Shown in pieces: positions 3-30,338 of a stretch of DNA of 39,659 nt. The stretch is from Anaerolineales bacterium (GTDB taxonomy: Bacteria; Chloroflexota; Anaerolineae; Anaerolineales; E44-bin32): contig SOJU01000099.1 in assembly GCA_004376465.1 (NCBI GenBank), positions 1 through 39,659 on the forward strand. The letters are read 5' to 3'. The notes under the pieces were generated by a model. That model saw nothing but the letters and a program-made list of their open reading frames with translations. It was not told the origin of the DNA and did no database searches. The position numbers were made by a program, and so were the translations under genes. How positions within the stretch are numbered: the first letter of the stretch is position 1; every line of letters begins with the position of its first letter.

Positions 3-578
3 GTGCTTTTCTCAGGGAAGGTACATTTATGCAAACTCAGCCCATCGGGGCAGGTGCAAATCATATCCATCATTGAGCCGGTGATCATGTTCAATGAATT
101 GACGGCGATAGACGGTGGACCCAACCCTTTCACCGCGGTCGCGGTAGGAGCGTGTCTAACATGGAACATTGGCTATGATGACTTCCACTCTTTAGTCATG
201 CGCTACCCTGACCCAGCTATTGGCATAGCGATGATGCGCGTGCTGGCGAGACGCACCAGGCATCTCATCGACCGCTGTGAGGACCTATCATTCCGATCCG
301 TGCTTGCGCGGACAGCCAAGATACTTCTTGAAATGAGCGATAATGGTACAAATGCAATCGATCGCAGTGAGTATCCGATTAAAGATGTGGCAGCAAGTAT
401 AGCCACCGTACCGGAGACACTCAGTCGCTCCTTTAGCGTCCTCAGCGAACGCGGCTTGATAAACTGCACCCGAAAGAAAATCACTATCCTGCAGCCCATT
501 GAACTATCTGTTGCCGCGCAACTAGAACCTTACCCTTTCAATAATTGCGCCCCTGAGCTTGACCGCCAGCATACCTGA
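3..578 (+). CDS. Crp/Fnr-family transcriptional regulator, 5' truncated by window edge
   Basis: Cyclic-nucleotide-binding-like region followed by a C-terminal winged HTH (YPIKDVAASIATVPETLSRSFSVLSERGLI), typical of Crp/Fnr proteins. The ORF is open at the window edge. Confidence 0.85.
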   Translation: MLFSGKVHLCKLSPSGQVQIISIIEPVIMFNELTAIDGGPNPFTAVAVGACLTWNIGYDDFHSLVMRYPDPAIGIAMMRVLARRTRHLIDRCEDLSFRSVLARTAKILLEMSDNGTNAIDRSEYPIKDVAASIATVPETLSRSFSVLSERGLINCTRKKITILQPIELSVAAQLEPYPFNNCAPELDRQHT

Positions 579-694: not shown

Positions 695-712
695 TTGTGA
701 GCGGTATCACAA
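695..712. promoter_or_regulatory. CRP/FNR-family operator-like palindrome TTGTGA-GCGGTA-TCACAA
   Basis: Perfect 6+6 inverted repeat with 6-nt spacer matching the CRP-type consensus TGTGA-N6-TCACA, about 41 nt upstream of the likely ATG at 754 and downstream of a Crp/Fnr gene. Confidence 0.6.
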
Positions 713-753
713 GTTGGCTTATTACCATAAAAATAATCCTTGGAGTAGTGATA

Positions 754-2223
754 ATGAAAGCAATAACAAAACGATTTCAATATTTCTTCCTGTCGACCAA
801 AGGATTGGCTCTGGTTGCCATTGCCCTGTTGTCCCTCGTCACCGCCATTTGGGGCACACTCTCCGGCCCATTGGCCGAGATGGGCATCAACGATATAACC
901 GTCCGGGTGTTGGGCATGGATTTAGTGCCTGCCGAACGGGAAGGTCGCTTGATCATGCTATATCACAGCATCGCCATGACCGTGGTCGCTATTCAGGTGT
1001 ATTTCATAACCGGCATCATGGCAATGAAAAAGCATGAGCGGGCAACGATTAACGCCACAGTGACCGTTGGTTATATGTTTGCGCTGATCTTCGGCATGCT
1101 GTTTGGTTATTTCGGACACAACTGGATTTACCATGGATTGTTTATTGCCGGCCAAACACTCATGTACTTCGGCGGGATACTTTTAGCAGCAGCATTATGG
1201 CCTTGGAAGAAGGAATACTACATCCAGGACCCGAAGTCAGAATACGCCCACACAAAAGGCGGAATGGACCTGGAACGAGCGGCTTTCTTCGCAATGGCCG
1301 TCACAACTTTGGGCTCAGCCTTACTGGGTGCGATCGCTGGCGCTAACTTCGGCAACGGCTTCGTGACATTCTTGGCCGAAGACACGGTCCGCGATCCGAA
1401 CAAAGCAGTCCTGGCCCGGGCCGTCATCGGACATCTTCACATCATGGTCGCTCTTACAGGGGTAGCTATAACCCTGATTGTGGGCAAATGGTATGACTTC
1501 AAAGGCATCCTGCACAAGATCGCCATGCCGAGTATGATTTTTGGCTCAATCATTCTCGCTCTTGGCTGTGCTTTAATGATACCGGCCCAGTATTATGCCC
1601 ACCTTATTATTTATGTCGGCTCGACATTCGTCTTGGTCGCGGGATTGCTCCTGGTTATCTACGGCTGGGGCAGGTTAGTCAGAGACCGTCTGGCAGAGCA
1701 AGGGATCGAAAAAGCATCCTTTGGCCAAAAATTCAAGGCCTTGTTCCATGACCCCGTGAAGTGGGGCGCAACCTGGCAAATGGTGTATATGAATTTCTGC
1801 GTCACCTTTGTTGGCCTCTTCATGGCCGCCAAATTGGATGATATTATTCGCCGCCTTCCACTGCGCGAAGAACGGATAACCCTGACCGGGCACTGGCATG
1901 TCCTTGCTGCGATTATCGCCACCATCATGCTCCTCTACTTCGTTGATCTTATGGGGCTGAAAGGAAAAGCACGCAAGTGGTTCGGATGGCTGGTGATTAT
2001 CTCCTCGGACCTGGCGTTTGGGGCCGCAACTATCTTTGCACTGAAGCGATTGTTCGTCAGCGAGTCGGACCAACAACCTCTGGTGGACACCCTTGATCTA
2101 CTTACCGAGATTGGACTAGGACTCCTGCTGATCGTCATCGCCGCCTTCCTGGTTTGGAGGCTGATTGATCTTTTCAAGAAAAATGGCCGCTGGGCGAAAG
2201 AACTGTCCGAAGTGGACCTATAG
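754..2223 (+). CDS. Polytopic membrane protein, distantly heme-copper oxidase / NO reductase subunit I-like
   Basis: About 12 hydrophobic segments; His-containing helices YHSIAMTVV, GHNWIYHG, GHLHIMVALTGVA, GHWHVLAA. The HxH helices resemble HCO/NorB helices. Start at 754 (ATG with GGAG upstream) preferred over GTG 697. Confidence 0.5.
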   Translation: MKAITKRFQYFFLSTKGLALVAIALLSLVTAIWGTLSGPLAEMGINDITVRVLGMDLVPAEREGRLIMLYHSIAMTVVAIQVYFITGIMAMKKHERATINATVTVGYMFALIFGMLFGYFGHNWIYHGLFIAGQTLMYFGGILLAAALWPWKKEYYIQDPKSEYAHTKGGMDLERAAFFAMAVTTLGSALLGAIAGANFGNGFVTFLAEDTVRDPNKAVLARAVIGHLHIMVALTGVAITLIVGKWYDFKGILHKIAMPSMIFGSIILALGCALMIPAQYYAHLIIYVGSTFVLVAGLLLVIYGWGRLVRDRLAEQGIEKASFGQKFKALFHDPVKWGATWQMVYMNFCVTFVGLFMAAKLDDIIRRLPLREERITLTGHWHVLAAIIATIMLLYFVDLMGLKGKARKWFGWLVIISSDLAFGAATIFALKRLFVSESDQQPLVDTLDLLTEIGLGLLLIVIAAFLVWRLIDLFKKNGRWAKELSEVDL

Positions 2224-2282: not shown

Positions 2283-3185
2283 ATGAAACGTACATTTTTC
2301 TTCCTTTTGTTTGTCACATTATTGACGGCGGGCTGCGCATCTTCCACGGTTGAAGCTACCCCTCCGCCGCAGATCGATACCGGTGTCGATCCGGATAGTT
2401 GGGCGCTCATTCCCGCTGGCGAGTTTCTTGCGGACTTCACCAATGAAGAAATCTTGGTGGATTACGACTATCAAATGATGGTTACCGATGTGACCAACGC
2501 TCAATTCGCCGATTTCCTCAACGCGGCGTTGAAGGACGGGACTATCAAAATAGTGGGCGATGAAATCATGGGGTATTATCCGGGCGATATATTCCGCGAG
2601 TACCGGCACGAAGAAGAATACGCCGCTGGAGATTATCCACTCATGCCGTTGGACGAAGAAGCTGCTCTGAGACTGGATTTCGACGGGACGACGTTTACCG
2701 CCAAACCTGGCTATGAGAACCACCCCATGGTTATGGTCACCTGGTTTGGAGCCAATGCGTATTGCCAATACTACGATGGACGTCTGCCCTCGGCAATTGA
2801 GTGGGAAAAAGCAGCCCGCGGCGCCGACGGACGACCTTTTCCATGGGGCAACGAAGCCCAACAAACCAACGCCAACTACTATCACAGCAATGACCCGTTC
2901 GAGGATGTGATCGGTCGAATGGGCGACACAACCCCGGTGGGTTTTTACAACGGCCAGACGCATCTCGGCTTCGAAACGGAAGATTCCCCCAGCCCCTATG
3001 GTCTATACGACATGGCTGGAAACGTTTATCAATGGGTCGGCGATGTAATCCCTTACCAGCATTATCGCTTGCTGCTGGGCGGCGCCAAGGATGTGTACGC
3101 CGTCAGGATTCGGGTTTGGGTATCCAACAATGTGGAGCCGGTTTATTTCAGCCCCAACGCTGGGTTCCGCTGCGCACAGGACTAG
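2283..3185 (+). CDS. SUMF1/formylglycine-generating-enzyme-fold lipoprotein
   Basis: Lipobox LLTAGC; FGE-family motifs GRLPSAIEWEKAARGADGRPFPWGNE, YDMAGNVYQWVGD, NAGFRCAQD. Confidence 0.85.
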   Translation: MKRTFFFLLFVTLLTAGCASSTVEATPPPQIDTGVDPDSWALIPAGEFLADFTNEEILVDYDYQMMVTDVTNAQFADFLNAALKDGTIKIVGDEIMGYYPGDIFREYRHEEEYAAGDYPLMPLDEEAALRLDFDGTTFTAKPGYENHPMVMVTWFGANAYCQYYDGRLPSAIEWEKAARGADGRPFPWGNEAQQTNANYYHSNDPFEDVIGRMGDTTPVGFYNGQTHLGFETEDSPSPYGLYDMAGNVYQWVGDVIPYQHYRLLLGGAKDVYAVRIRVWVSNNVEPVYFSPNAGFRCAQD

Positions 3186-3249: not shown

Positions 3250-4176
3250 ATGAGAAACAAAAAAACACAAGAAAAGACAATGACCTACTTAAAAACTGCT
3301 AATCAATCAATATTGAAAACACTGACCGCGAAAATCCGCCTTTACTGGCAGATGACCAAAATCCTTCAAACCGGTCTGCTGCTCTCCACCGGGTTGGCGG
3401 GATACATGAGCGCTCGCTGCCCAGTCCAGACCTGGCAAACGCTGCTCGCGTTGACTGGCAGCCTCTTTCTGGCGATCAGCGGCAGCACGGTCTTCAATAT
3501 GGTCTACGATCGAGACATCGACGCCCGAATGCCGCGCACTCAAAAACGCCCACTCCCCAGCGGTAAGGTCGGCGTGGCAGAGGCGCTTGTTCTGGGCAGC
3601 GTGTTAAGTGTCATCGGCATCGGGTGGGCCGCCTTCCTATCACCGCTTTATGGCTTGATCGTGTTCGCCGGTCTGTTCTTCGATGTCGTCGTGTATACAA
3701 TTTGGCTCAAACGCCGCACGCCATGGTCGATCATCTGGGGGGGAATCGCCGGGGGGATGCCGGCTCTCGCCGGCCGCGCTCTTGGCTTAGGAGCGATCGA
3801 TTGGGTAGGATTGATGTTTGCGCTGGCAGTGCTGCTATGGATCCCCACCCACATCATGACCTTCAGCCTGCGGTACCGTGAGGGCTATGCAAAAGCTGGC
3901 GTTCCCACCTTCCCTTCAGCCTATGGGGAGCGAACTACGGGCATCATCATCGCCCTGTCGAGCATCGCCACCGCGATCGCCATGGCATTCGCCGCGTACG
4001 GGATCGGGATAACATGGGGCTATATGAGATTACTCATCATCCTCAGCTGCGGCTTGCTTGCCTTAGCCATCAGCAGCATGGTACATCCCTCGTTTAAAAT
4101 GAATTTTAGTCTCTTCAAATTCGCTTCTCTATATATGCTGAGTTCAATGCTTTTGGTTGTCCTCGGCGTCCTGTAA
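3250..4176 (+). CDS. cyoE: UbiA-family prenyltransferase, protoheme IX farnesyltransferase (heme O synthase)-like
   Basis: NMVYDRDIDARMPRTQKRPLPSGKV matches the CyoE/CtaB signature (NxxxDxxxDxxMxRTxxRPL); multiple TM helices. Confidence 0.8.
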   Translation: MRNKKTQEKTMTYLKTANQSILKTLTAKIRLYWQMTKILQTGLLLSTGLAGYMSARCPVQTWQTLLALTGSLFLAISGSTVFNMVYDRDIDARMPRTQKRPLPSGKVGVAEALVLGSVLSVIGIGWAAFLSPLYGLIVFAGLFFDVVVYTIWLKRRTPWSIIWGGIAGGMPALAGRALGLGAIDWVGLMFALAVLLWIPTHIMTFSLRYREGYAKAGVPTFPSAYGERTTGIIIALSSIATAIAMAFAAYGIGITWGYMRLLIILSCGLLALAISSMVHPSFKMNFSLFKFASLYMLSSMLLVVLGVL

Positions 4177-4781
4177 TGAAGAGGATCACCCCGCTAGACA
4201 GAATTGCTCTCCTGATTACCGGTTTACTCGCTGCATACCTGATCGTGATGGGAGTTGAGGGTCTCCCCGTCCTGGCCACATGGGCATATAGCATCGCGTT
4301 CGGCGTGCTGTTGATTGCCAGTCTGCTCATGATCATCAACGGCTTCGATGTTCTTGACAGCCCTTGGGTCGTCATCATCGCCGCCATCATCCCCTTAAGC
4401 CTTTCGCTCGGCATGGTTATCGAAAACCTTCCCCCGGACTGGCATCTGGCTTATCTCGTCTTCGTTGTGATCGGCTTCCTCGCCATCCTGCTGACGCGCT
4501 TTCTCGTCCCTGAACGTGCGGCGACGATCGTGCTTGCCGTCGTGCACGGCATCGCCGGGCTCTTAATCGTCGGCTTGCCCATTGCTCTCGTGCTGCAGGG
4601 CGTAAAGGCACCGATATATTTATTCATGAGCGTGGGCGGAGCGCTGATCGGAATCGGCGGCCTGCTGCTCGCTTTCCTGAAGACCGGCAAACCCATCCTC
4701 TCCGCCGAGAAAATCTTAACTCTCCTTCCCTGGATTCTACTCCTGATGAGCGCGGCATTCGTGCTCGGACTGGGCGCTTAA
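4176..4781 (+). CDS. Integral membrane protein of unknown function
   Basis: 201-aa ORF, start codon overlapping the stop of the upstream gene; about 6 hydrophobic helices. Confidence 0.65.
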   Translation: MKRITPLDRIALLITGLLAAYLIVMGVEGLPVLATWAYSIAFGVLLIASLLMIINGFDVLDSPWVVIIAAIIPLSLSLGMVIENLPPDWHLAYLVFVVIGFLAILLTRFLVPERAATIVLAVVHGIAGLLIVGLPIALVLQGVKAPIYLFMSVGGALIGIGGLLLAFLKTGKPILSAEKILTLLPWILLLMSAAFVLGLGA

Positions 4782-4784: not shown

Positions 4785-5243
4785 TTGTCTCGCCTCGAAC
4801 GTTTTAAGCCAGCCGCAAGTAAGGCGTGGCTTATCGCCTCAGCCGGTATTATGTGGAGCGGTGTTGGCTTAATGCTCTGCAACCTGGCTTATGGCTGGCT
4901 GCGACCCGTAGCGTTTCCTCAGGTTTTATGGATGACTCTGGCTGGAGTCCTGCTCGCTTCAGCCATCTTCTACTTCGGTTTCAGCAAGCTCGCCAAGAAG
5001 AACATCCGGCGGATTACCGACATGGTCGGAGATAAGATCTGCATATTCGCTTTCCAGGAATGGACGAGTTATCCCCTCATTGTCGTTATGATTGGATTGG
5101 GACTCTCGCTCCGAATTTTGTTACCCATACCAAAACCGTACCTGGCGATCCTCTATATCGGCATTGGCGGCGGTTTATTCCTGGCTAGTTTGTGTTACTA
5201 CAAACATCTTCTGCGCCCCCAAGACCACGTTAGCTCCTCCTAA
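4785..5243 (+). CDS. Small integral membrane protein of unknown function
   Basis: 152-aa ORF (TTG start) 3 nt after the preceding stop; four hydrophobic segments. Confidence 0.55.
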   Translation: MSRLERFKPAASKAWLIASAGIMWSGVGLMLCNLAYGWLRPVAFPQVLWMTLAGVLLASAIFYFGFSKLAKKNIRRITDMVGDKICIFAFQEWTSYPLIVVMIGLGLSLRILLPIPKPYLAILYIGIGGGLFLASLCYYKHLLRPQDHVSSS

Positions 5244-5710
5244 ATGTACGTTTTCCTGCTCTCCCTCACTTATTCGGGTGACCAAGCCGAATTAAGTCAC
5301 ACAGCTACACCCGGCTCCCGTTTAGGTAATCAATACTTGACGCTCGGCAAATACACGCACCGTCGTTTGTGATAAGCTGAACAATGTGGAGGGTTTGTTG
5401 CCTTTGCACGCATCGTGCTTGTGTAATTTGTTCCGAGAAGCTCGAAACAGGGTATGAAAACGAGATCCTCCATTCAGCTCAGTAGTGTTTTATCACTCTT
5501 GGTTTTTCGGTTGGAGGAGAACTCTCGTAAATACCGGTTTTTTTACTTGTTTGCCTCGGTTAATTGAGTTCTTGCTCTGACCAAACAAAATCGCGCTTTA
5601 AAGCGCTAATGATTAAGGAGGGTGAAGAAAATCAGTAGAGCTATGCAACAAAGGTCTTACGTAAAAAACCGGTTTTTAACAAATTACGAAGAGGAAAAGA
5701 GGAGAATGCA

Positions 5711-6703
5711 ATGCTCAAGAAACCAACGTTTTCTCTCGTCGTAATTGGCGCCTTGCTCTTGTTGGTGCTGGCTATCGGTGCTTGTGCACCTGCTGCGACG
5801 CCAGAGCCACCTCCACCGCCGCCAACCGACGTACCGCCACCGCCCCCTCCAACAGCGACTCCAGCGCCAGATCATTCTGCATTTGAAGCTGCTGTTGCAG
5901 GCAATGCGCACAATCAGTACGATATCGGTCATGGACCGAACACGTGGTGCACTCGCTGTCACTCCCCCCAGAACTGGGATCCGGAAGCTGTCCAGGGACC
6001 TGGGGAAGGCGAATGCTTCACGTGCAAATTCCCACATTTAGAAGAGATGAGTGTGGCCTCAGGGAATCCTTTCGTTCCCGAAGAGGAGTGGGTCGGCATG
6101 CCTTGCGAAACCTGTCACGTAGTTGATGGAAACGGATACGTCACTCCTGGGATCGCCTGGCTCAATCCGGTCTCGATGGATTACGTTGCAGTAAGCAATT
6201 CAACAGAGTTGTGTGAGAAATGCCACGTAACCACCACCGGCAACGCCTTCGGCTCTGCTGTGGATCATAAGGTAACTCTTGGCGGAAGCGCCCACCTCAA
6301 CTATGGTGGTTTCCTCGGGGAAGTACCCCCGCCCAGCTACTGCGCCGATTGCCATGACCCACACACGCTCGCACCACCACAATGTGTCGACTGCCACGAA
6401 GACGTGACGACTTCAGACACCCACATGAAGGGTTATAACGCCCTTATGCTAGACAAGCTGACCTGTATGGCTTGTCACGATGCCTCCGGCTTGGATGTAG
6501 GACCTCCACCGGATGGTGAGGGTGGTCCATGGGTAACCCAGGAAACCTCTGTTGGGCGTGCTGGACCGACCACGGAATTTGTGCTCTCGCACAGCATCGT
6601 CTACACGGTCGCTTGCGACCGCTGCCACTTCGAAGAGAATACCTTCGAATTGACCGTCTTTACCGCAGATGGTTCCGTACCAGCGCCTCCAGCAGAAGAT
6701 TAG
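5711..6703 (+). CDS. Octaheme c-type cytochrome lipoprotein with one CxxCK motif
   Basis: Lipobox AIGAC, Pro-rich linker, heme motifs CTRCH, CFTCK, CETCH, CEKCH, CADCH, CVDCH, CMACH, CDRCH; purine-rich RBS upstream. Confidence 0.85.
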   Translation: MLKKPTFSLVVIGALLLLVLAIGACAPAATPEPPPPPPTDVPPPPPPTATPAPDHSAFEAAVAGNAHNQYDIGHGPNTWCTRCHSPQNWDPEAVQGPGEGECFTCKFPHLEEMSVASGNPFVPEEEWVGMPCETCHVVDGNGYVTPGIAWLNPVSMDYVAVSNSTELCEKCHVTTTGNAFGSAVDHKVTLGGSAHLNYGGFLGEVPPPSYCADCHDPHTLAPPQCVDCHEDVTTSDTHMKGYNALMLDKLTCMACHDASGLDVGPPPDGEGGPWVTQETSVGRAGPTTEFVLSHSIVYTVACDRCHFEENTFELTVFTADGSVPAPPAED

Positions 6704-6824
6704 CCGGGGCAGGTTATACCATCGGAGCTCGAAACATTCCGCGACATCATCCTATCAAAACCAATGCGGAATGGACCGTCTTCCTGGCTGACAATTGCGC
6801 CGGGAAGGTGAAGGTAAACGGTAT

Positions 6825-6857
6825 CCTGTGGGGTGAGGAGACTCCTCACCCCACAGG
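6825..6857. terminator. Strong hairpin CCTGTGGGGTGAGGAG-A-CTCCTCACCCCACAGG between the two octaheme genes
   Basis: Perfect 16-nt inverted repeat around 1 central nt; no T-tract follows, so it may be a processing/stability element rather than an intrinsic terminator. Confidence 0.5.
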
Positions 6858-6971
6858 TATATAAACTAGAATCTAAGGACCGTAGGTTTTAAAAAAATGG
6901 ATAGAAGAATGTCTCTCTTTTCAATAATCTCTGACCGGGGCCAGAACTCTCGTGGTCTGAATGCTCGGGCG

Positions 6972-7853
6972 ATGACGCAATTCTTCACCCAATGCTTGAT
7001 TCTATTATTCCTGATCGGCGGATTAGCAGCCTGCCAGTCTTCTGACTCTCCTACAGCTTCCTCGCCTGACGCCCAGGCCACACAACCATCTGGGGGTGGA
7101 GAAGCAACAAGCGAAGACCCTGTAGATGAACAGGAGACACCTTCAGCGAGCGAAATCGAACAAGCCTGGCAGTCCAGCCCTCATGCGGATACGTATGTCG
7201 AAGGGGACAACAACGTTTGCGCTCGCTGCCATGCACCCGCCGTCTTCGTTCCATCCATAGACGATATCTCAGAATCATGTTTGGTTTGCAAATTCGAGAT
7301 AGCTCCCCCGCCTGCCACCATCGCTCAGGAAGAGTGGACCAATATCGAATGTAATGTTTGCCATCTTGTCAATAAAAATGACGAGGTTGAGCCTGAATAC
7401 GCCTGGCTTTTATTCCTGCTAATCAATGAATATGAGCAGGTGGATTCGTCCACAGAATTGTGCGGAAAGTGCCACAATGATCCTGATCTCAATCAGCCCG
7501 GTCATACAACTGTTGTCGTGGGCGGAGCACATGCAGATTATTCCTGCACGGACTGTCACGACGCCCACAGCACGATAGCATCATGCGGCGCTGCTGGATG
7601 TCACGACGACATGGGCGCGGATATTCCCGGGCACGACGAAGCGCACGAGTCGGTATCCTGCGTGGCTTGCCACGACGCCGGCGATATGGCGATCGGCCCA
7701 GACGAGGATCTAGGCACCTGGACCACATTCCTACCTCCGGATTCGGAAGGGGTTTCCTACCCCTTCACCTCTCACAACACTCAACTAGAGGCCAGTTGTG
7801 ACCGCTGCCATTATCCCAATAACCCCTGGGGTTTTTCGGAGGATGTTAAGTAG
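6972..7853 (+). CDS. Second octaheme c-type cytochrome lipoprotein with CxxCK motif, paralogue of 5711..6703
   Basis: Lipobox GLAAC; motifs CARCH, CLVCK, CNVCH, CGKCH, CTDCH, CGAAGCH (CX4CH), CVACH, CDRCH in the same order as the upstream gene. ORF can extend to ATG 6897. Confidence 0.82.
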   Translation: MTQFFTQCLILLFLIGGLAACQSSDSPTASSPDAQATQPSGGGEATSEDPVDEQETPSASEIEQAWQSSPHADTYVEGDNNVCARCHAPAVFVPSIDDISESCLVCKFEIAPPPATIAQEEWTNIECNVCHLVNKNDEVEPEYAWLLFLLINEYEQVDSSTELCGKCHNDPDLNQPGHTTVVVGGAHADYSCTDCHDAHSTIASCGAAGCHDDMGADIPGHDEAHESVSCVACHDAGDMAIGPDEDLGTWTTFLPPDSEGVSYPFTSHNTQLEASCDRCHYPNNPWGFSEDVK

Positions 7854-8106: not shown

Positions 8107-8805
8107 ATGAGAACCTCAACTGGAAAAACCCTTAGGATCATCGCCATCATCTTCATGGGCCTCACCGCGGCGATGAACATCGTCAGCGGCGTCGGCACCA
8201 GCTGCGCCGCGTTCTTAACCAAGCAATACCCACCGTTCTGGGACATACTAGTAGCGGAACTCCAGTGGTTGTGGCAGTCCTTCGTCTTTGTGACTCTTCT
8301 GGTCGGCCTCGCCGGGATCTGGTCAGTTGTCCAACTCGTGCGTGGCAAGAGTAACGCCTACCGCAACGCCATGATCCTATTAATCCTGGGAACGATAGTG
8401 AATGGAATCCACGTATATTATTCCCAGACCATACTCGGAAGCGTTATCCCTATAGCCATAACCCTCCTAACCAACGTCATCACCCTGGTGCTTTTTATCA
8501 TTTTTGGGACACCCGGGTTGCGCGATCAGATCATGTTCGATGGTGAGGGCGATCCCATATCTGGGGCGACCGCCAGCGGATTAACGGCGATCCTCGTCGG
8601 GATGATTCTCCTCTCGACTTCGTCCTGGGCCGGGCCTTCGCATACATTTGCTGATGGGGTGAACCTGGTCCATGTCCTGCGAATACCCCTCCTCGCCGGA
8701 GGCTCCATTTTAACGATGGGCGGCCTGGCCACATTGCTGTGGACCGCGCTGGATATTACCTTCCCAAGGGAGATACGGCGCTCTGCAGAGGATAAAAAGC
8801 AATAA
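8107..8805 (+). CDS. Conserved-looking integral membrane protein, unknown function
   Basis: 232-aa ORF with about 6 hydrophobic segments, good RBS (ggagaaaagag) before ATG. Confidence 0.6.
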   Translation: MRTSTGKTLRIIAIIFMGLTAAMNIVSGVGTSCAAFLTKQYPPFWDILVAELQWLWQSFVFVTLLVGLAGIWSVVQLVRGKSNAYRNAMILLILGTIVNGIHVYYSQTILGSVIPIAITLLTNVITLVLFIIFGTPGLRDQIMFDGEGDPISGATASGLTAILVGMILLSTSSWAGPSHTFADGVNLVHVLRIPLLAGGSILTMGGLATLLWTALDITFPREIRRSAEDKKQ

Positions 8806-9095: not shown

Positions 9096-9938
9096 TCAAT
9101 CAGGTTTGGACGATCGCCCTTCGCCCAAATTGAATAAACTCAGCAACGCGAAAGCCCCCGCACCGAAAAAACCAATCAGCGCTGGACCGATCAATCCCAT
9201 CTGCAGCGCGGCCAGCGTGTTACCGGCCACCGAGCTGGCATAAAAACCAGAAGCGAGCATCAGGAAGCTTTGATCGGATGTTTCACGCACCTTATGCGCC
9301 TGACGTCCCGATAGCCATTGATAAAGGATGAAGATGGTGAATGTCGTGACCAGCCAGCCCAGATAATTATGCAGCGGCACACCGAAATATGCGCCGTCGA
9401 CCTCCCAGACCCAGTGGCCCATCTGCACCATGATTGGATCTATCACCAGGTCCCAGGCCGTCATGACCACCGCGGCTAGAGCCGCAACGCGCAAGCCGTG
9501 CCAATGGTCTTCTGCTGATCGATGACCCAGGATGGTTTCAGCGATCACGAGCGATGGATAACTTACCATGAACCACGCAAACGGGATTAAGTAGGGAACC
9601 AGGCCCAGGAAGCGGGGGCCAAGCTGGTCCGTGTAGTGATAGGGACCATAAATCCACCCTGTTGCAACCCCAACGCTTTCAAAAAGCAGGCTCACAGTGT
9701 AGGTCAATGCGAATAGGATGAAAGTATTGCGCCAGCCGATATAGGTCAATGCATGGGTGATGGCAAAAGCTGTGGCGATCAATGTGAGCAAGGGAACGGA
9801 GTACCCGTGTACTCTCGGAAAGCCGAGCAGTGGTCCGAGGCTGGCGTATGCAGTAAATACAGCGTAGAGAACAAGCAGGCTTATCGCCGCGATTCGTAGT
9901 GGGCGCATTCTCAGACCACTCTTTCGATAGCGTTTCAA
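9096..9938 (-). CDS. cruF: Carotenoid biosynthesis protein, CruF/DUF422-like
   Basis: Motifs ESVGVATGWIYGPYHYTDQLGPRFLGLVPYLIPFAWFMVSYPS and WDLVIDPIMVQMGHWVWEVDGAYFGVPLHNYLGW match the DUF422 hydratase family. Confidence 0.8.
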   Translation of the reverse strand: MKRYRKSGLRMRPLRIAAISLLVLYAVFTAYASLGPLLGFPRVHGYSVPLLTLIATAFAITHALTYIGWRNTFILFALTYTVSLLFESVGVATGWIYGPYHYTDQLGPRFLGLVPYLIPFAWFMVSYPSLVIAETILGHRSAEDHWHGLRVAALAAVVMTAWDLVIDPIMVQMGHWVWEVDGAYFGVPLHNYLGWLVTTFTIFILYQWLSGRQAHKVRETSDQSFLMLASGFYASSVAGNTLAALQMGLIGPALIGFFGAGAFALLSLFNLGEGRSSKPD

Positions 9939-9969
9939 ACCATCTAACTACGTTCGTTCTCCCGACCAA

Positions 9970-10134
9970 TCACGCCTGCCCCGCTTCGATCTCATCCAGC
10001 AGCGCTTCATCCTGCCGCAGGCTGCGAAAGCGCAAGATGATGTTGACGATGTAAAGGCCGATTGTCCCGAGGATTACGGCATAGCCGGCGATCATATAAT
10101 TCAAGGTGTCCGCTGGTCCTTCCTGAAACATCAT
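9970..10134 (-). CDS. ccmD: CcmD-like small heme-exporter protein (54 aa)
   Basis: Not in the supplied ORF track; translated by hand: MMFQEGPADTLNYMIAGYAVILGTIGLYIVNIILRFRSLRQDEALLDEIEAGQA. One TM plus charged tail, immediately downstream of ccmC. Confidence 0.75.
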   Translation of the reverse strand: MMFQEGPADTLNYMIAGYAVILGTIGLYIVNIILRFRSLRQDEALLDEIEAGQA

Positions 10135-10215
10135 AGTGTCTGCTCCTGTTGTATTCTCTGTACTTCTCGTGTCCTCATTCGCCTGGATGGCTATGTGCGT
10201 GGGTTTCTGGTTTTC

Positions 10216-10917
10216 TCAGGACGAGAGGGCAGTTAGCTTGCGCTCCTCGATCTTCTCCTTCTGCTGCTGCAGCCGCAGTCGATACCAGAGCAAGGTGATA
10301 TAGATCAGCGTAAATGTGAATAGGCTAAAGAAGAATGCCACCCGCATTTCCGCGTTCATGTCGAAGGCGCCCAACGCCGTGGGGTCGGAGCTCCCAACGA
10401 CGACAGGGTGGATCGTGCGAAAGATGCGGATCGAGGCGAAGGTAATCGGTACGCTGATGAAGCCCACGATGCCATACACAGCGCCAAAGCGGGCACGCCG
10501 ATCGGGGTCTTCAATCCCCTGCCGCAGCATGATGTAGGCGATATAGATCAACAGCATGATCGTCGCCGTTACGAGCCGTGGATCCCAGGTCCACCAGGTA
10601 TTCCAGATCGGCCGGGCCCAAATCGAGCCTGTCACGATATTAATAAAGGTGAAGACAACGCCAATTTCTACCGACGCTACAGCAATCCGATCCCAGCGTT
10701 GTTCACCGCGAGCCAGATAAATCCCCCCGACGATGGCTGTGACGAGAAACGCAAGCGCTCCCACCCATCCTGCGGCGACGTGAAAATAAAACACACGCTG
10801 CACATCGCCCATGATCGCCTCTTGAGGCGCCCAGATGAGCACGAGGTACAATGCGACGATGAATACTGCGCTGGTCAACCATGTCAACACTTTTAGAGCT
10901 TTAGGCGTGCGTTCCAT
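10216..10917 (-). CDS. ccmC: Heme exporter permease CcmC
   Basis: WGxWW-type motif variant (WNTWWTWDPRLVTATIMLLIYIAYIMLR), six TMs, ccm operon context. Confidence 0.9.
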   Translation of the reverse strand: MERTPKALKVLTWLTSAVFIVALYLVLIWAPQEAIMGDVQRVFYFHVAAGWVGALAFLVTAIVGGIYLARGEQRWDRIAVASVEIGVVFTFINIVTGSIWARPIWNTWWTWDPRLVTATIMLLIYIAYIMLRQGIEDPDRRARFGAVYGIVGFISVPITFASIRIFRTIHPVVVGSSDPTALGAFDMNAEMRVAFFFSLFTFTLIYITLLWYRLRLQQQKEKIEERKLTALSS

Positions 10918-11008
10918 GACATTCCTCCACTGATGCTACTTCGCCGTCCAGCGACCTGGACATAAAATCGTCTTTGTTTCAAGACATTACCCACACAGGG
11001 TTGCTCTC

Positions 11009-11749
11009 TTATTCCTCGACGATGAAGTCAAAGACCATGAAGGCGACGGCGATGAAGATTACGTCGTAGGCAATCATTACATTTATCCAGGGCATGATCT
11101 CCGCCATCTCAAAACCCATGAGAAAGCCATTGCTCGCCTTTACAGCCGCGAGCAGAAGCGGGATCAGCACCGGGAAAAGCAGTATTGGCAGCAGCACATC
11201 CCGCGTGCGCGCCTGGACAGCCATCGATGCCAACAGCGTGCCAACCGCAGTATAGCCTATCGATCCAAGAAGGATCACAAGGATCAAGCCCGGTTGAAAG
11301 AGATTTACATTATAAAGCACGCTATACATCGGCAGGATGATCGCTTCGACAATAAGCATGAAGAATAAGTTACCGATCGCTTTTCCAAAAAATATAGCGT
11401 TGCGGTCCACCGGCGCAAGCAGCAGACCGTCGAGACAGCCGCGGTCCTTCTCAATCGCCATCGAGCGGTTGAGCCCCAGGGTGCCTGCAAAAGCGAAGGT
11501 GACCCAAAGCACGCCCGAGGTGACGGCCTCGCGGGTGCGAATATCCAATTCGAGGGCGAAGTTGAAGATCAGGATCACCAGCGCGGAAAAAACCAGCATC
11601 GCCCCAATCAATTCGCGGCTTCGGAACTCGGCGGCGAGGTCCTTCCAGACGATGGCAGCGATCGAGCGCAGATACGCCCGCAGCGAACCATCCGCTCTGG
11701 TTTCGATCTTCTGCACAACAAGATCCGTCGTTGGAGGCATTTCAGACAC
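11009..11749 (-). CDS. ccmB: Heme exporter permease CcmB
   Basis: Six TMs; KDLAAEFRSRE and IEKDRGCLDGLLLAPVDRNAIFFGKAIGN typical of CcmB. Confidence 0.9.
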   Translation of the reverse strand: MSEMPPTTDLVVQKIETRADGSLRAYLRSIAAIVWKDLAAEFRSRELIGAMLVFSALVILIFNFALELDIRTREAVTSGVLWVTFAFAGTLGLNRSMAIEKDRGCLDGLLLAPVDRNAIFFGKAIGNLFFMLIVEAIILPMYSVLYNVNLFQPGLILVILLGSIGYTAVGTLLASMAVQARTRDVLLPILLFPVLIPLLLAAVKASNGFLMGFEMAEIMPWINVMIAYDVIFIAVAFMVFDFIVEE

Positions 11750-12440
11750 GGGTCACCGCTCGATAAAGTTCTGTGAGTTGTATGGGGTCGAGAGCGTCAG
11801 TGCTCTCGGATGCAGTGATGATCCCTTTCGAGAGAATGTCCACCCGATCTGCAAGATCGGCAGCCCGGGAGATGTCGTGAGAGGTCATGACCACCGTTCG
11901 ACCTGTGGAGGCGATCTCTCGTAGGACCTGATCCAACATCGCCGCGGCTTCTTGATCGAGACCGGTATGCGGCTCATCAAAAAGCAGGATATCGGGTCGA
12001 TGAAGGATTGCACGGCCGATCGCCAGGCGCTGTTGCATCCCACGCGAGAATTGACGCACCAGATCTCGCCGGCGAGGGTTGAGACCTATCAGATGCAGCA
12101 CCTCATCTATCCGCCGGTCAAGCTCACCAACGCCATACATCCAACCATAAAAGCGCAGGTTCTGCTCAGCGGACAGATCACCGTACAGTAAAGGTTGATG
12201 GGATACAACGCCCAGCCGCCGTCGGACAGCTGCAGCTTCTGCTGGTAGTTGATGACCGGCCACAATCACCTCGCCCATTTTGGGGCGGGAGAGGGTGGCA
12301 AGGATGCGCAGAAAAGTCGTCTTCCCGGCTCCGTTAGGGCCCAACAAAGCGACGAACTCGCCTTTCGAAACCTGAAAATCCAAGCCGCGTAGAACGGGTT
12401 TTGGACCGAACGTCTTTACCAGACGCCTAACCTTAATCAT
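11742..12440 (-). CDS. ccmA: Heme exporter ATP-binding protein CcmA
   Basis: Walker A GPNGAGKT, signature FSRGMQQR, Walker B ILLFDEPHTGLD. Start MIKVRRL at 12440 preferred over 12458. Confidence 0.9.
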   Translation of the reverse strand: MIKVRRLVKTFGPKPVLRGLDFQVSKGEFVALLGPNGAGKTTFLRILATLSRPKMGEVIVAGHQLPAEAAAVRRRLGVVSHQPLLYGDLSAEQNLRFYGWMYGVGELDRRIDEVLHLIGLNPRRRDLVRQFSRGMQQRLAIGRAILHRPDILLFDEPHTGLDQEAAAMLDQVLREIASTGRTVVMTSHDISRAADLADRVDILSKGIITASESTDALDPIQLTELYRAVTRV

Positions 12441-14274
12441 GCTCCGCCGCCGACTCAAGGAGTGCTTTTAAGGTACGCTTGAGCTCCATACGACGTTCCT
12501 TGTAGGCCGTTTCTGTGACCTCTCCTGCCTCAAAACTATCATCTAACGCGGCGATTGCTCGCATCAGCGCTTCGCTATCGCGGGGTTCCTCTGGCGCGGT
12601 TTTATCGTCGTAGTCAACGGTTGACTCCTGTCCTTGCGACCACTTCCACCAAATAAAGAAGAGGGCGATTAGGGTTAGGCCCAATGCAGTGCCACCGACG
12701 ATGAGATTGGTTGTCGAAGAAGAATCCGTCTGTGCAGGGTGCCTGCCCGAGAGGCGCAATTCCAGTACTTCGCCCCGTTCAAGCGGTTCCATCCTGTAAC
12801 TTTCCATGACCAACCCGCCCATATCGCGCGCGCCCACTTCGCTCAACCCCTCACCACTAATGGATGGGGGGCCCTGCGTCTTCAAAATGACGATCGCTTC
12901 AACTGGGTAGTCTACGGGCTGCTGATACTCCAGGCTGCGTTCATAGGGCAGCGTGAAACTAAAGTAGATCTCTACTGCCTCCCCAGGAATGAACGCCTCG
13001 TGCATCACAAAGCCGTCCGCGTCTTCTGTGAAACGCATCAACTCGGTCGAATCAGCGAAATACAGATTACTAAAACCTTTCGGCAACGGCACCCGAATAT
13101 CATTAACCCCATCTGGTTCAGCAATCGTTCGGTCGCCGGTATTCGTCATGAGCAGTAATTCGGAAACTTCAACCACACCTTCGATGGAGTAATCGAAGAT
13201 CAAATGCAATCGGTCTACAACGAGCAGGCTGTCATCCGTTGTGGTTTCGAAAACCGTTAAGGGAAGTTCAAGTGAGAGGTTGTCCTCCAGCATATGTCCT
13301 GCAGTGTTGAAATACCGCACCCCTTGATACTCCGTTAATGCACCAAAGAAACGGTCAGGGACGATCTCCAAATCCTGGACTTCAAACTTGCCGTCGGCAT
13401 CGACCGGGATTTCCTCTTCGAATACCAGTTGATTCCCATCGAAGGCAATAAATGTAACCATCAAGCCGTGCGGGAGATCCGCTCCCTCCGTTCCATTTTC
13501 GATTGAACCGTAGACAACCCCATTGCTCACGTCAGAGATTGGTCCCGCTGTTGCTGTTTCCTCGCTAAACGCGAGTGTGCGCACATAAGCTGCTGCGGCA
13601 AAGCGTTCGCTTTCGCTAAGTGCTCCCTCCAGCGCAGGCATCGAGCCTACACCCTCGGTAATCACTTCGTAAAAATCATCGAGCGAGTTATTGGTGAATA
13701 GCGCCACATCTCGCAGGTCCACATCAGGCGCCAGGGCTTCCCCGCGCTCACCATGGCAGTCGACACAAATCTCTTGATAAACAACCGCACCCTGCTCGAG
13801 TTGGTCTGACGAAACGCTCAGTGATAGCGCGTAGGCGACAACATCCCAGCGCTGCGTATCGGTCAAATTCACGAAGGGAGGCATGAGCCGCTCCATCCTT
13901 CCCTGTGTGACGGTAAGATACCAATCGGAAGGCAGCACGCTAGAGGCGAATTCAGGATCTCCTAACAGAGGAGGCCGGACATCCAGATTCGCGGACATCG
14001 AGCCCTCCCCCAACCCTGCGGAGCCATGGCAGGGCTCACAGTTTTCCAGATAAATTTGCTCCCCCTGGTTCGGATCCGGTGGCGTCTCCGGGGTTGAGCG
14101 CTCTTCCACCTTTGTTGCCTGTGTCTCTGGTGCGGGGCGCTGCTGCGTCGCTTGAGGTATTTGTTCAGCAGCCTGGCGAGTCGCCAGCTCCGGGGGCGGG
14201 GTGACATCCTCGGAGAGTGAACATCCTGTCACTACGAGAAGGATACTTAGGAATAGGAAGACATTTCGTTTCAC
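12433..14274 (-). CDS. Diheme cytochrome c lipoprotein with large C-terminal extracytoplasmic region and TM anchor
   Basis: Lipobox VVTGC; CEPCHGSAGLG and CVDCHGERG; C-terminal TM LIVGGTALGLTLIALFFIWWKW. Confidence 0.8.
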   Translation of the reverse strand: MKRNVFLFLSILLVVTGCSLSEDVTPPPELATRQAAEQIPQATQQRPAPETQATKVEERSTPETPPDPNQGEQIYLENCEPCHGSAGLGEGSMSANLDVRPPLLGDPEFASSVLPSDWYLTVTQGRMERLMPPFVNLTDTQRWDVVAYALSLSVSSDQLEQGAVVYQEICVDCHGERGEALAPDVDLRDVALFTNNSLDDFYEVITEGVGSMPALEGALSESERFAAAAYVRTLAFSEETATAGPISDVSNGVVYGSIENGTEGADLPHGLMVTFIAFDGNQLVFEEEIPVDADGKFEVQDLEIVPDRFFGALTEYQGVRYFNTAGHMLEDNLSLELPLTVFETTTDDSLLVVDRLHLIFDYSIEGVVEVSELLLMTNTGDRTIAEPDGVNDIRVPLPKGFSNLYFADSTELMRFTEDADGFVMHEAFIPGEAVEIYFSFTLPYERSLEYQQPVDYPVEAIVILKTQGPPSISGEGLSEVGARDMGGLVMESYRMEPLERGEVLELRLSGRHPAQTDSSSTTNLIVGGTALGLTLIALFFIWWKWSQGQESTVDYDDKTAPEEPRDSEALMRAIAALDDSFEAGEVTETAYKERRMELKRTLKALLESAAEHD

Positions 14275-14738
14275 GCTTGCCCCTCCGCTTCAGCCAGCGT
14301 GTTACCGCAGCGAATGCAGAATAAATCATCCGCCTTAACTTCAGACCCACAGGAGGGACAGAAGCCACCGTCCCCATCTTCCTTCTCGCTCCTGATCTGA
14401 GCTATGGCTGCTTCGATCTCGTCGTCTATTTCGTTCCCTTCAGGGGACACATCACCACCTGCTTTCAGGATATCGATCCGACTTAAGATCCCCGCTCCTT
14501 CTTTCATCAGGGCTTGCCGCTGCTCCCGGTAATCCTTCTCCAGGATCTTCCCGGTATTGAAGTCCATTTCCAGCTCCTGCAGACTATTCAGCACTCGATC
14601 GCGGCCGGCTTGAAGCTCAGAGGACAGCCGTTCCGTATCGGTTACGCCCTTACCTCGATGCTGTATTAAGGGGAGGGCGACAAACGCTACCGTCAGCAGC
14701 GTCAACGCCAGCCCAGCGAGTATCGAGCCTATATCCAT
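14271..14738 (-). CDS. CcmI-like N-terminus fused to zinc-ribbon domain
   Basis: N-terminal TM plus coiled-coil (LQELEMDFNTGKILEKDYREQRQALMKE) and C-terminal CPSCGSEVKADDLFCIRCG zinc ribbon; in ccm operon. Confidence 0.65.
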   Translation of the reverse strand: MDIGSILAGLALTLLTVAFVALPLIQHRGKGVTDTERLSSELQAGRDRVLNSLQELEMDFNTGKILEKDYREQRQALMKEGAGILSRIDILKAGGDVSPEGNEIDDEIEAAIAQIRSEKEDGDGGFCPSCGSEVKADDLFCIRCGNTLAEAEGQA

Positions 14739-14836
14739 AGTTGTACCTTCTCCTCGTTCATCTCACCTCGTCCCATTACTGCGCGCCTTGATCCGCCTAT
14801 TTCGTGATGGGAAACGTGCAATCCTCAAAGCGACTT

Positions 14837-15421
14837 TCATTTATGCTCAGCCATCACCGTTTCGATTTGATTGACGATCTCGTCAAGCGATAAATAGGGT
14901 CCAATCTTCACAGCTGCCAATCGACCATCAGGGCCGATGATGTAAGTCTCCGGTACACCGAGCATGCGGAATGCCTGCGAGATTCGTGTCCCCAGATCGG
15001 GACCATTCGGGTATGTAATTCCAAATTTCGCCAGGTAGGCGCGGGCTTCAGTTTCCGTATCCACGTAGTCCACACCCAGAAAAACTACACCCTGATCCTT
15101 GTACAGCTGGTATGCCTGTTCCAATTCAACAGCCTCTTGCTCGCAAGGTTTGCACCAGGACGCCCAGAAATTGACGACAACAATCTGACCACGGAGATCG
15201 GCGAAGTCGATCTCGTCTCCGTCGAAAGTACTCAGGACCAAATTGGGAACACGATCTCCAACCCTGATAGAACCTCGTTGGGAGCGAACTAAACCTATGC
15301 CCAGGACGGCTAGAAGCCCCAGAACGAACACCCACACGAGCACAACGCCCCATTTCGGCCGCGGTGTTTTCCCGGGTGATTCTTCGTTATTCTCAGTTGT
15401 TGAGTTATCGATAATTTCCAT
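14837..15421 (-). CDS. ccmG: TlpA/CcmG-type thioredoxin-like thiol:disulfide protein
   Basis: VVNFWASWCKPCEQE active site; N-terminal TM; LGVPETYIIGPDG. Confidence 0.9.
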   Translation of the reverse strand: MEIIDNSTTENNEESPGKTPRPKWGVVLVWVFVLGLLAVLGIGLVRSQRGSIRVGDRVPNLVLSTFDGDEIDFADLRGQIVVVNFWASWCKPCEQEAVELEQAYQLYKDQGVVFLGVDYVDTETEARAYLAKFGITYPNGPDLGTRISQAFRMLGVPETYIIGPDGRLAAVKIGPYLSLDEIVNQIETVMAEHK

Positions 15422-15438
15422 ACGGCAAACCCTCGCTC

Positions 15439-15927
15439 TTATTCATCCCGCCGGCGCAGTTCCTGCTCCAATTGGGCAATATAGGGATCCTCACTCTCTA
15501 CAGTCACACCCTTACCCTTGGGCGTAGGTGGCTCAACCTTCCAGGCCCGCATAACCATGAATAGGATGAATGCTCCGATTGCGAACAAGACCGGGGGCAG
15601 GATGTAAACAAGTGCATTGAAACCCTCCGCTGGCGGTTCGGCCAACACCCGTGGCCCATACTGGTCGACGAAGTAGTCTTTGATCTGATCATCGCTCCAG
15701 CCCAACACCAGCTTCTCGCGGATGGTGGCTCGCCACTGTTCGCATGCTTGCGTCGGACATACGTCCAACGGAATGTTTTCACACACCGGGCAATAGAGCT
15801 CACGGGCGATGACGTTGACATCATCGTCGGTAGGACCGCCGTCTTGTGCGAAAGCGGGAAGTGCGAACACCTGTGAGAGCAGAATAAATCCCAGTGTCAT
15901 TCCCATCACCGTTTGAAGCTTACGCAT
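15439..15927 (-). CDS. ccmH: Cytochrome c maturation protein CcmH
   Basis: ARELYCPVCENIPLDVCPTQACEQWRATIREKL (CPxC motif), DYFVDQYGPRVLAEPP, C-terminal TM. Start MRKLQ at 15927. Confidence 0.88.
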   Translation of the reverse strand: MRKLQTVMGMTLGFILLSQVFALPAFAQDGGPTDDDVNVIARELYCPVCENIPLDVCPTQACEQWRATIREKLVLGWSDDQIKDYFVDQYGPRVLAEPPAEGFNALVYILPPVLFAIGAFILFMVMRAWKVEPPTPKGKGVTVESEDPYIAQLEQELRRRDE

Positions 15928-15941
15928 TACTAAACCTCTCC

Positions 15942-17993
15942 TCACGTTCGGGTGCTCTTTGATGCGGACGGCGTTTTGTTCGCCCGCCTCCGACCACTGA
16001 TGACCCAAACCGCCACGATGGTTCCAATGCTGAATACAACGCCACCGATCCAGATTAAATTGACCAGCGGGTTATGGTAAACCTTGAAGGTCGCATCGCT
16101 CTGGGAATCCGGGTCCAAACCCACCAGGATCACATAGAAATCGTCCGCCAGCGTGGAACGCGTCCCTGGTATGGTCACCGCTTGTTGAGAGTCGTAATAG
16201 TAATCCTTGCGCGGGTATAGTTCGTCCACAAGTTTCCCGTCTTGATAAACAGAGACGACGGCTCGGGCGACGTTGCGGCCATCGTTAGTGTCAAATACCG
16301 CAATGTCGTCATAGGTCATCACGTAGCGTCCGAGCGTAACTTGCTCACCCTTAGAAAGCGTTGCTTGAGTCTCAGTCTGGTATACCTCAATTCCGATGAT
16401 GCCAAACGCCATCAGAACCACACCAAGATGGATAATATAGCCCCCATAGCGTCGGGGATTTCTCCCCACCAGACGCCATAAAGCCAGCGGTAGGTTTTCG
16501 CCGTGCTGCCGTCGGCGCGCCATTACCCCTCGCCAGAATTCGTACAGCGTTACAAATGCAACTAATGACGCCGCCGTATACCCCAGGAGGGCTGTCGGAT
16601 TGTGAATCCCGCCGAAATACAGGGTGATGGGAACCAGCAGAGAGACGAGAGCGGGCTTCCACAGTGCTCGCCCGATCGTCTTCCAGGTGCTGCTTGCATA
16701 TGCGGAAAGAGGGGCGATAGCCATCAAGATTAGCAGCCCAAGACCGAGCGGTCCATTTGCCCGCTCGTAGAAGGGCGGGCCAACCGTGATTTTCTGACCC
16801 GTTACCAATTCGGATATCAGCGGGAAAATCACACCCCAGAAGCTAACTGCCAGGATACCCATGAAGAGAAAGTTGTTCAGCAGAAAGAGCGCCTCGCGTG
16901 AGAACACCGAAGTTAGGAAATTTTCGCCCTTCAGCATCTCCCAACGGTTAATCAACAGGCTGAGTGAAACGATAAATGTGACCCCGATGAAAACGAAAAA
17001 CATCGGCCCGATGGCGGACTTGGCGAAAGCATGCACAGAGGAGAGCACACCGGATCGGGAGAGAAACGTTCCGAAGAGCACTAGAGCGTAGGTTAAAATG
17101 ATCAGCACCACATTCCAGTGCTTGAGCATGCCTCTCTTCTCTTGGACCATTACAGAGTGCAAGAAGGCCGTCCCCGCGAGCCATGGCAATAAGGCGGCGA
17201 TTTCCACCGGGTCCCAACCCCAGTAGCCACCCCAGCCGAGCACGTCGTAAGCCCAACGTCCGCCCAGTATTAGCCCAAGCGAGAGGAAGATCCAGGCAAC
17301 CAGCGTCCAGCGGCGGGTGATGCGTATCCAGCGGTCGTCGCTGCGACGAGTGATCAACGCGGCCATCGCGAAGGCGTAGGGGATTACGTAGGCGACAAAC
17401 CCCAGATAAAGCGCCGGGGGGTGGATGATCATACCCGGGTGGCGCAGAAGAGGATTCAAACCCCGACCGTCAGGCGGATTGAGCGGAACAGCGCCCGTAG
17501 GCTGCAGCATCGCCGTCACCTGCTGTCCATCCGCAGAAAGCCACAATCGAGCAAAGGGATTCTCAAAGAAGACCACCAGGCTGAGGAAGAAAGCCAGGGT
17601 GATCATCGTGACCATGATGAACCAAGGAAGCAGTTCGCGATCACGATCCCACTTGCGCAAGCTGGCAGCGCTTGTAAACGCCGCCATTAGCCACGCCCAG
17701 AAGACCAGAGAACCCTCTTGTCCACCCCATAGGGCGGTCACTTTCAAGTAAGTGGGCATGGAATTGCTCGTCACCGAGGCCACAAAGCCAATCTCGTAGT
17801 GACCCGTAGCGAGCAGCCATATGATGGCTGCTGAGGCGATGGTTAATAGCGGCCAGGTCAATAGCATTGCGTAACGGCCGCTCTCCACGAATTCCGGCTT
17901 GCGCTTTAACGCGCCGTATGCTGCTGCACCCGCGCCATATAGCGAAGCCAAGAAAGTAAGTACCAGCACATAATAACCAATGTTCGCAACCAC
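15942..17993 (-). CDS. ccmF: Heme lyase CcmF/CcyK family
   Basis: WGGQEGSLVFWAWLMA, HPPALYLGFV, GWGGYWGWDPVEIAALLPWL motifs; about 15 TMs. Confidence 0.95.
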   Translation of the reverse strand: MVANIGYYVLVLTFLASLYGAGAAAYGALKRKPEFVESGRYAMLLTWPLLTIASAAIIWLLATGHYEIGFVASVTSNSMPTYLKVTALWGGQEGSLVFWAWLMAAFTSAASLRKWDRDRELLPWFIMVTMITLAFFLSLVVFFENPFARLWLSADGQQVTAMLQPTGAVPLNPPDGRGLNPLLRHPGMIIHPPALYLGFVAYVIPYAFAMAALITRRSDDRWIRITRRWTLVAWIFLSLGLILGGRWAYDVLGWGGYWGWDPVEIAALLPWLAGTAFLHSVMVQEKRGMLKHWNVVLIILTYALVLFGTFLSRSGVLSSVHAFAKSAIGPMFFVFIGVTFIVSLSLLINRWEMLKGENFLTSVFSREALFLLNNFLFMGILAVSFWGVIFPLISELVTGQKITVGPPFYERANGPLGLGLLILMAIAPLSAYASSTWKTIGRALWKPALVSLLVPITLYFGGIHNPTALLGYTAASLVAFVTLYEFWRGVMARRRQHGENLPLALWRLVGRNPRRYGGYIIHLGVVLMAFGIIGIEVYQTETQATLSKGEQVTLGRYVMTYDDIAVFDTNDGRNVARAVVSVYQDGKLVDELYPRKDYYYDSQQAVTIPGTRSTLADDFYVILVGLDPDSQSDATFKVYHNPLVNLIWIGGVVFSIGTIVAVWVISGRRRANKTPSASKSTRT

Positions 17994-18078
17994 GTTTTGT
18001 CTCTCCTCTTAAGACATAAGTTTAACTATACGTAAGGCAACACTCACCATGAGGAAACTAGCACCGCAGGGGGTAGAT

Positions 18079-18585
18079 TTATCCGTCTTCGGCTTGCAAG
18101 GGGACATCACCTTCATAGCGGGTGGGGCACTTGAGAAGTAATTCATCAGCATGGAAGATGCCGTCCTCGCCCATTCTGCCCGTTACAATCGCCTGGGCTT
18201 CATCACGGAGCAGATCCGGCATGACACCGATGTATTCCACCTCTAGCCGTGTGGCTCGCGGATCTTCCAACGCAATGTGCAGCGCCTCGGCCAGTCCGCC
18301 TGCTTTCTCAATCTCATCCAGATCCGCGGGCACGTTGGCTATTGTGAAACGAAGCGTTAGATTCTTGACATCGTACTGAATCGTGTCGCCATCTACGACG
18401 CCAGAGATCTTAATATCCCGATCTCCTAAGTCATCACCCCTGGCAAATAATTCGTCAATCGTCAAATAATATTGCGCGGCTGCTTGAGTCGAGGAGGCAA
18501 TCAAATACACAATCGCCGCGACGATCAAGAAACCACCCAGGAGAAATTTGCCTTGACCAGTACGTTTTTTGGTTACTTCGCCCAT
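18079..18585 (-). CDS. ccmE: Heme chaperone CcmE, CXXXY-type
   Basis: Single N-terminal TM, OB-fold CcmE region (LFARGDDLGDRDIKISGVVDGD...GVMPDLLRDEAQAIVTGRMGEDGIFHADELLLKCPTRYEG); start MGEVTKKR at 18585. Confidence 0.85.
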   Translation of the reverse strand: MGEVTKKRTGQGKFLLGGFLIVAAIVYLIASSTQAAAQYYLTIDELFARGDDLGDRDIKISGVVDGDTIQYDVKNLTLRFTIANVPADLDEIEKAGGLAEALHIALEDPRATRLEVEYIGVMPDLLRDEAQAIVTGRMGEDGIFHADELLLKCPTRYEGDVPLQAEDG

Positions 18586-22241: not shown

Positions 22242-22253
22242 GATTGGAGCGAG

Positions 22254-26611: not shown

Positions 26612-26620
26612 GAGGCTCCG

Positions 26621-27660: not shown

Positions 27661-27672
27661 GAGTCTGCTTCT

Positions 27673-28728: not shown

Positions 28729-28843
28729 GTGAGTCGCAAGCCGGACTATCGATTGAAAGGAGGTTCAAATGTGCAACAGCGATTCGTTTGATTAAATAAA
28801 AAGGGGATCCGATCTCAGAAAACCCAAATTAACGGAGGAGAAT

Positions 28844-30313: not shown

Positions 30314-30338
30314 AAATAGGTTTTGATCTCTGTTGTTT

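Follow-up and report, generated by a model that had tools for sequence, protein, structure and literature searches.

A conserved family of small multiheme cytochromes, mainly from Chloroflexota, with a CxxCK motif at the second heme site

The window analyzed here is a stretch of 39,659 nucleotides from an uncultured Chloroflexota bacterium (contig SOJU01000099.1), which carries on its forward strand two tandem genes for octaheme cytochromes, named OCC1 and OCC2. OCC1 (5711..6703) encodes 330 amino acids, starting with a lipoprotein signal in which the lipid-bearing Cys is residue 25 (5783-5785) of the lipobox LAIGAC, and containing heme motifs in the order CTRCH-CFTCK-CETCH-CEKCH-CADCH-CVDCH-CMACH-CDRCH. 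The reading frame of OCC2 is open from 6897, the start listed originally, although translation probably begins at the ATG at 6972 (gene 6972..7853), which yields MTQFFTQCLILLFLIGGLAAC and thereby a normal lipoprotein signal. Its heme motifs read CARCH-CLVCK-CNVCH-CGKCH-CTDCH-CGAAGCH-CVACH-CDRCH, the sixth being of the CX4CH and not the CxxCH type. The first-pass annotation had described the pair as paralogous lipoproteins with eight heme motifs each and a CxxCK motif at the second site, and our data agree: signals were found in both, the motif search placed CFTCK of OCC1 at 6014..6028 and CLVCK of OCC2 at 7278..7292, and the proteins share 33% identity over 240 residues (E 5e-29), which makes them homologous.

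Upstream and on the same strand, the window opens with a gene for a CRP/FNR-family regulator (3..578, truncated by the contig start; Pfam cNMP_binding and HTH_Crp_2), whose cluster c2 recurs at loci organized like the window (type A). It is followed by the genes for a 508-residue membrane protein (cluster c3; 697..2223), an FGE/SUMF-domain lipoprotein (2283..3185; PF03781, 1e-31), the heme O synthase CyoE (3250..4176; TIGR01473 above cut-off) and two small membrane proteins that recur in related loci, namely c6 of the c3 module (4176..4781) and cluster c7 (4785..5243). Directly after OCC2 lies c1, a membrane protein of 232 residues (8107..8805) that is present at most type-A loci and also in c3 modules devoid of OCC genes.

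Adjacent orthologues of OCC1 and OCC2 were found in three further species of this genus and in another genus of the same family. Scanning GTDB contigs yielded 21 loci, all from Chloroflexota apart from one uncultured archaeon, and further loci came from searching 396 genomes of the class, while a plasmid collection gave no match. After merging at 90% identity, 52 members were retained, and site 2 reads CxxCK in all 49 non-redundant members that possess it and CxxCH in none of the 52, keeping in mind that the searches were seeded with the family's own conserved stretches and could miss remoter relatives with CxxCH at this site. The Lys, whose conservation the first-pass annotation had suggested checking, is thus invariant. 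The three remaining members lack the site altogether, L027 having lost heme 2 and L033 and L081 hemes 1 and 2. Three clades can be discerned in the tree: OCC1 (support 99/99), OCC2 (100/99) and OCC3 (100/100). The OCC3 proteins (L026 8775-9767, L029 8961-9947, L031 8955-9947, L032 2305-3321 and others) have nine heme motifs, of which the first two are both CxxCK. The archaeal protein (L035, 8195-12337) measures around 1380 residues and contains around 36 heme motifs, spread over three repeat units that all include a CAKCK; the units align along the family, and every one of them has CxxCK at site 1 and lacks site 2. In the literature that was consulted, mostly papers available without subscription, we found no description of the family or of a well-characterized family of the same architecture, and CxxCK was named for NrfA and the octaheme nitrite reductases only. 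The OCC proteins therefore form a genuine and conserved family that, as far as we could establish, is undescribed.

The likeness to NrfA, ONR, OTR, HAO and MccA that had been proposed for the pair was not recovered. None of 38 members searched matched the NrfA profile (PF02335), and no OTR or HAO profile from Pfam or NCBIfam was found among the families matched. The AF2 model of OCC2 is of fair quality (pLDDT 86, pTM 0.78); its longest helices span about nine residues and none is near the C-terminus, the long C-terminal helix bundle of the NrfA/HAO/MccA superfamily being absent from the model. Foldseek returned no solved relative (best E 2.9), and the HAO-like protein at the top of its matches, with a TM of 0.17, is meaningless. 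Profiles and fold together rule out the known octaheme enzyme families. All 38 members matched Pfam Cytochrome_C7 (PF14522; 35.7 bits for OCC1 and 30.9 for OCC2 against a gathering cut-off of 24.8), which suggests a loose membership of the c7/c3 superfamily only, PF14522 being a short three-heme domain. Beyond c3/c7, the best profile matches were with the DmsE-type decaheme cytochromes (23 of the 38) and domains II/IV of MtrC/MtrF (17), next to NrfH (12) and, weakly, c554 (3). The family profile aligned with the c3-type tetraheme 2a3m (1.5e-6) over hemes 5-7, including the CX4CH site, and with 6r2q (7e-7), an entry listed under another name that we take to be the MtrCAB complex with MtrA as chain A. 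Single-sequence searches of the PDB gave weak matches to cytochrome c3 and nonaheme proteins only. The similarity to MtrA/DmsE stays far under the family cut-offs (TIGR03508: 21 bits for OCC1, cut-off 192), and OCC1 and OCC2 have eight hemes and not ten; the lipid anchor and the CxxCK motif set them apart from these decahemes, and the same features, together with the heme number, from cytochromes c3/c7, which they resemble in mass per heme. The protein mass per heme amounts to 4.04 kDa for OCC1 and 3.65 kDa for OCC2 (4.65 and 4.27 kDa with heme), which places both in the class of peptide-minimized electron-transfer cytochromes, with less than 5 kDa per heme, as compared to more than 7 for catalytic ones (PMC7096707). 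Considering these 3.7-4.0 kDa per heme and the similarity to c3/c7, MtrA and DmsE, without any enzyme-family match, the scaffold is of the electron-transfer type, bearing a kind of heme whose known examples are catalytic.

The number and distribution of His residues provide a clue to the state of heme 2. Mature OCC2 has seven His within its heme motifs and seven free ones for eight hemes, so that the free His equal exactly its seven CxxCH-type hemes. One of these, at mature position 124 (7503..7505; corresponding to His186 of OCC1, 6266..6268), disappears together with the CxxCH motif of heme 1: it is present in 35 of the 39 members with CxxCH at heme 1, and absent in all 11 with CxxCK and in both members that lack the heme (Fisher p 3e-7 at a three-residue tolerance, a statistic that ignores kinship). 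Four members with CxxCH lack the residue, and the rule is therefore not absolute. The tree implies at least two independent changes from CxxCH to CxxCK at heme 1, on the stem of OCC3 and in L080_1495 inside another group (96/97), with the loss of heme 1 as a third event. The matching position is likewise without His in the archaeal units, whose site 1 is CxxCK. Heme 1 thus probably has its distal ligand at position 124, and hemes with Lys ligation in this family probably have no distal His. Although heme 2 is missing from L027, all free His are retained there, and hence none of these seems to serve heme 2. Heme 2 appears to lack a distal His of its own, an argument from co-variation and not from geometry, and given the vanishing distal His and the seven free His of OCC2 for seven CxxCH hemes it is probably open.

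A proximal Lys without distal His is the active-site arrangement of NrfA and the octaheme nitrite reductases, and where the function of a CxxCK heme is known, it is catalytic. The first-pass annotation took the proteins for a new class of octaheme enzyme, possibly a nitrogen-oxide, hydroxylamine or sulfite reductase, whose two copies could be specialized or form a heterodimer. We regard this as possible, albeit unlikely on balance. The invariant Lys in 49 of 49 members, the seemingly missing distal His, the FNR-type control described below and the position of the heme are all in line with it, as in MccA, OcwA and c554 it is likewise heme 2 that is atypical, active or open. What disagrees is the absence of an enzyme-family or fold match, a mass per heme far under that of catalytic cytochromes, and the fact that L027, L033 and L081 drop heme 2 yet keep the rest. 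NrfA has a distal Arg, Tyr and His at its open heme; in an alignment of 37 OCC members, no Arg beyond those within heme motifs is invariant, and Tyr100, present in 34 of 37, is the only nearly invariant Tyr. The part of that proposal that stands is the invariant Lys, the heme 2 seemingly without distal His, the lipoprotein signals and the apparent novelty of the family, so that two of the findings named beforehand as refuting it, homologues with CxxCH at the site and a known family of like architecture, did not turn up; the likeness to an enzyme gave way to a mass per heme and weak similarities that point to electron-transfer cytochromes. The differences with individual systems are likewise clear. 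NrfA, TvNiR and GsNiR share the CxxCK heme, apparently without distal His, with OCC; nevertheless this is site 1 of 5 in NrfA and site 4 of 8 in the TvNiR-type enzymes, which have an NrfA-like core, as opposed to site 2 of 8 in OCC, and OCC is much smaller per heme. MccA/SirA, OcwA and c554 have their open atypical heme at site 2, in MccA with a CX15CH motif, and OTR has a Lys-ligated active heme, although all of its motifs are CXXCH; these are larger proteins than OCC.

The genomes of the hosts, mostly drafts, do not support a fixed role in nitrite conversion either, as nitrite pathway genes are absent in most of them. NrfA was above cut-off in none of 8 genomes, and in a set of 12 genomes NarG was found in 3, Cu-NirK in 0 and NosZ in 1. 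A constant partner from ammonification (DNRA) or denitrification was not found among the host genomes searched (8 and 12, respectively). At the other extreme, the proteins could be pure electron carriers in which heme 2 is six-coordinate (Lys together with Met, Lys or another ligand) and the Lys just tunes the potential. The electron-transfer scaffold and the dispensability of heme 2 in L027 fit such a role. We nevertheless consider it improbable, since none of the 49 members has drifted to CxxCH and the Lys-ligated hemes lose their distal His instead of swapping it.

Two kinds of gene neighborhood can be discerned, in which one and the same cytochrome family adjoins different terminal enzymes. 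Type A comprises the window, L015-L025, L028, L030, L102, L106 and L107, short contigs revealing part of the arrangement only; its genes encode a CRP/FNR-type regulator, c3, the FGE lipoprotein, CyoE, the small membrane proteins, OCC1-OCC2 and c1. Type B (e.g. L029, L031-L034, L103-L105, L108, L109 and L111) contains DmsABC-type molybdoenzymes, sometimes in several copies, with DmsD, a radical SAM protein, the monoheme protein c9 and OCC3 and/or another OCC, and in many cases a sensor-regulator pair as well. In L026, c9 and such a pair are present without Dms genes in the vicinity. In L111 (282-18917) and L103 (9637-17073) successive DmsABC-type gene sets lie beside the OCC genes, L111 having four DmsA-like reading frames. 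This linkage to c3 or Dms modules, and the fact that no barrel or porin gene was recognized among the recurring neighbors, make it highly improbable that OCC belongs to an MtrA/DmsE-like extracellular electron conduit for the reduction of minerals or partner cells, even though the similarity to DmsE and MtrC/F, the lipid anchor and the giant multiheme protein of the archaeon would suit one.

The c3 protein has no match in Pfam and no sequence match in the PDB. In a Foldseek search with its AF2 model (pLDDT 80), the top 21 matches were all heme-copper oxidases or supercomplexes containing one, with cbb3 at a TM of 0.56 and a probability of 1.00 and NorB lower (0.99), at E-values of only 1e-3 to 1e-1. 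Since an hhalign comparison with one COX1 gave no signal, the connection to the oxidases is drawn from the predicted fold, and c3 is possibly an unrecognized heme-copper-type terminal enzyme of Anaerolineales. The protein contains the His pairs GHLH and GHWH and invariant His at 90, 146 and 302, and is not recognized by Pfam COX1. Homologs occur in L016, L017, L019, L020, L024, L025, L030 and L053-L062, always with heme O synthase near and usually with the FGE lipoprotein. Of 8 OCC genomes searched for COX1, 7 gave no match, among them CP070708, a chromosome in a single contig. CyoE is nevertheless encoded in the c3 module, and the c3 protein may be where heme O is used. Modules with c3 and without OCC are widespread, which rules out OCC as its obligate partner.

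Exact sites of the FNR/FixK/DNR type (TTGAY-N4-RTCAA) precede OCC1 in 8 of 13 type-A loci, with a total of nine in 3.8 kb of sequence before OCC1 against 0.02 expected, and further sites precede c3 or the regulator gene; in type-B loci none was found. The window has an operator-like site, TTGACGCTCGGCAA (5337..5350), one mismatch away from the dyad; L023 has the identical site and L021 an almost identical one. The locus regulators examined lack the N-terminal Cys cluster of FNR. An FNR/FixK/DNR-like regulator would probably turn on the type-A pair, an anaerobic induction against which it counts that the window's own site is mismatched and lies 370 bp upstream of OCC1.

On balance, we think it most likely, with about even chances of being correct, that the OCC proteins are electron-transfer cytochromes whose Lys-ligated hemes, one in OCC1 and OCC2 and two in OCC3, are probably open. 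OCC1 and OCC2 would be small lipid-anchored proteins, c3/c7-like at hemes 5-7 and weakly similar to MtrA, MtrC and DmsE in the rest, with hemes 1-2 as a separable N-terminal add-on. At the outer face of the membrane they probably pass electrons to anaerobic terminal oxidoreductases or receive electrons from them, the partner being the heme-copper-oxidase-like c3 module in type A and the DmsABC-type reductases in type B. Heme 2, bound via CxxCK and probably five-coordinate, could bind a small ligand or be the point of electron entry or exit. Several facts count against this electron-carrier reading: that a motif so difficult to mature is invariant suggests a role beyond wiring, c3 can do without OCC, considering the many modules that lack it, and with DmsC present in type B, DmsAB should not need another donor. 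A more far-reaching and rather doubtful reading is that OCC constitutes a new minimal class of heme enzyme, in which an NrfA-kind open heme with Lys ligand arose independently on an electron-transfer cytochrome, was doubled in OCC3 and was paired, under FNR/DNR-type control, with an unrecognized heme-copper-oxidase-like enzyme in type A. CxxCK is usually seen as the hallmark of ammonifying nitrite reductases; its invariance on a small electron-transfer scaffold would either break this rule or imply that catalysis by Lys-ligated heme arose more than once. The co-loss of the distal His predicts an open heme, which is directly testable.

The family also poses a question of maturation. Adjoining the OCC genes, the reverse strand of the window (9096-18738) carries a CruF-type carotenoid gene and then the genes of a cytochrome c maturation system, which read as CcmC, B, A, G, H, F and E and include the sole CcmF and the sole CcmC match of the genome; a second, NrfE-like or dedicated CXXCK lyase was not seen in this draft, which is 81% complete. 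A comparable case is reported for Shewanella, in which CxxCK sites are likewise matured with no lyase of their own. Elsewhere in the window, two histidine kinases (18990-20564 and 38133-39602) have two CxxCH motifs each in their predicted outer domain, and similar heme-motif kinases occur at type-B OCC loci (L026). The genes at 21699-38067 on the forward strand read like an alternative complex III (pentaheme, molybdopterin-like, FeS and NrfD-like proteins), followed by more multiheme proteins, a Rieske protein and a cytochrome b.
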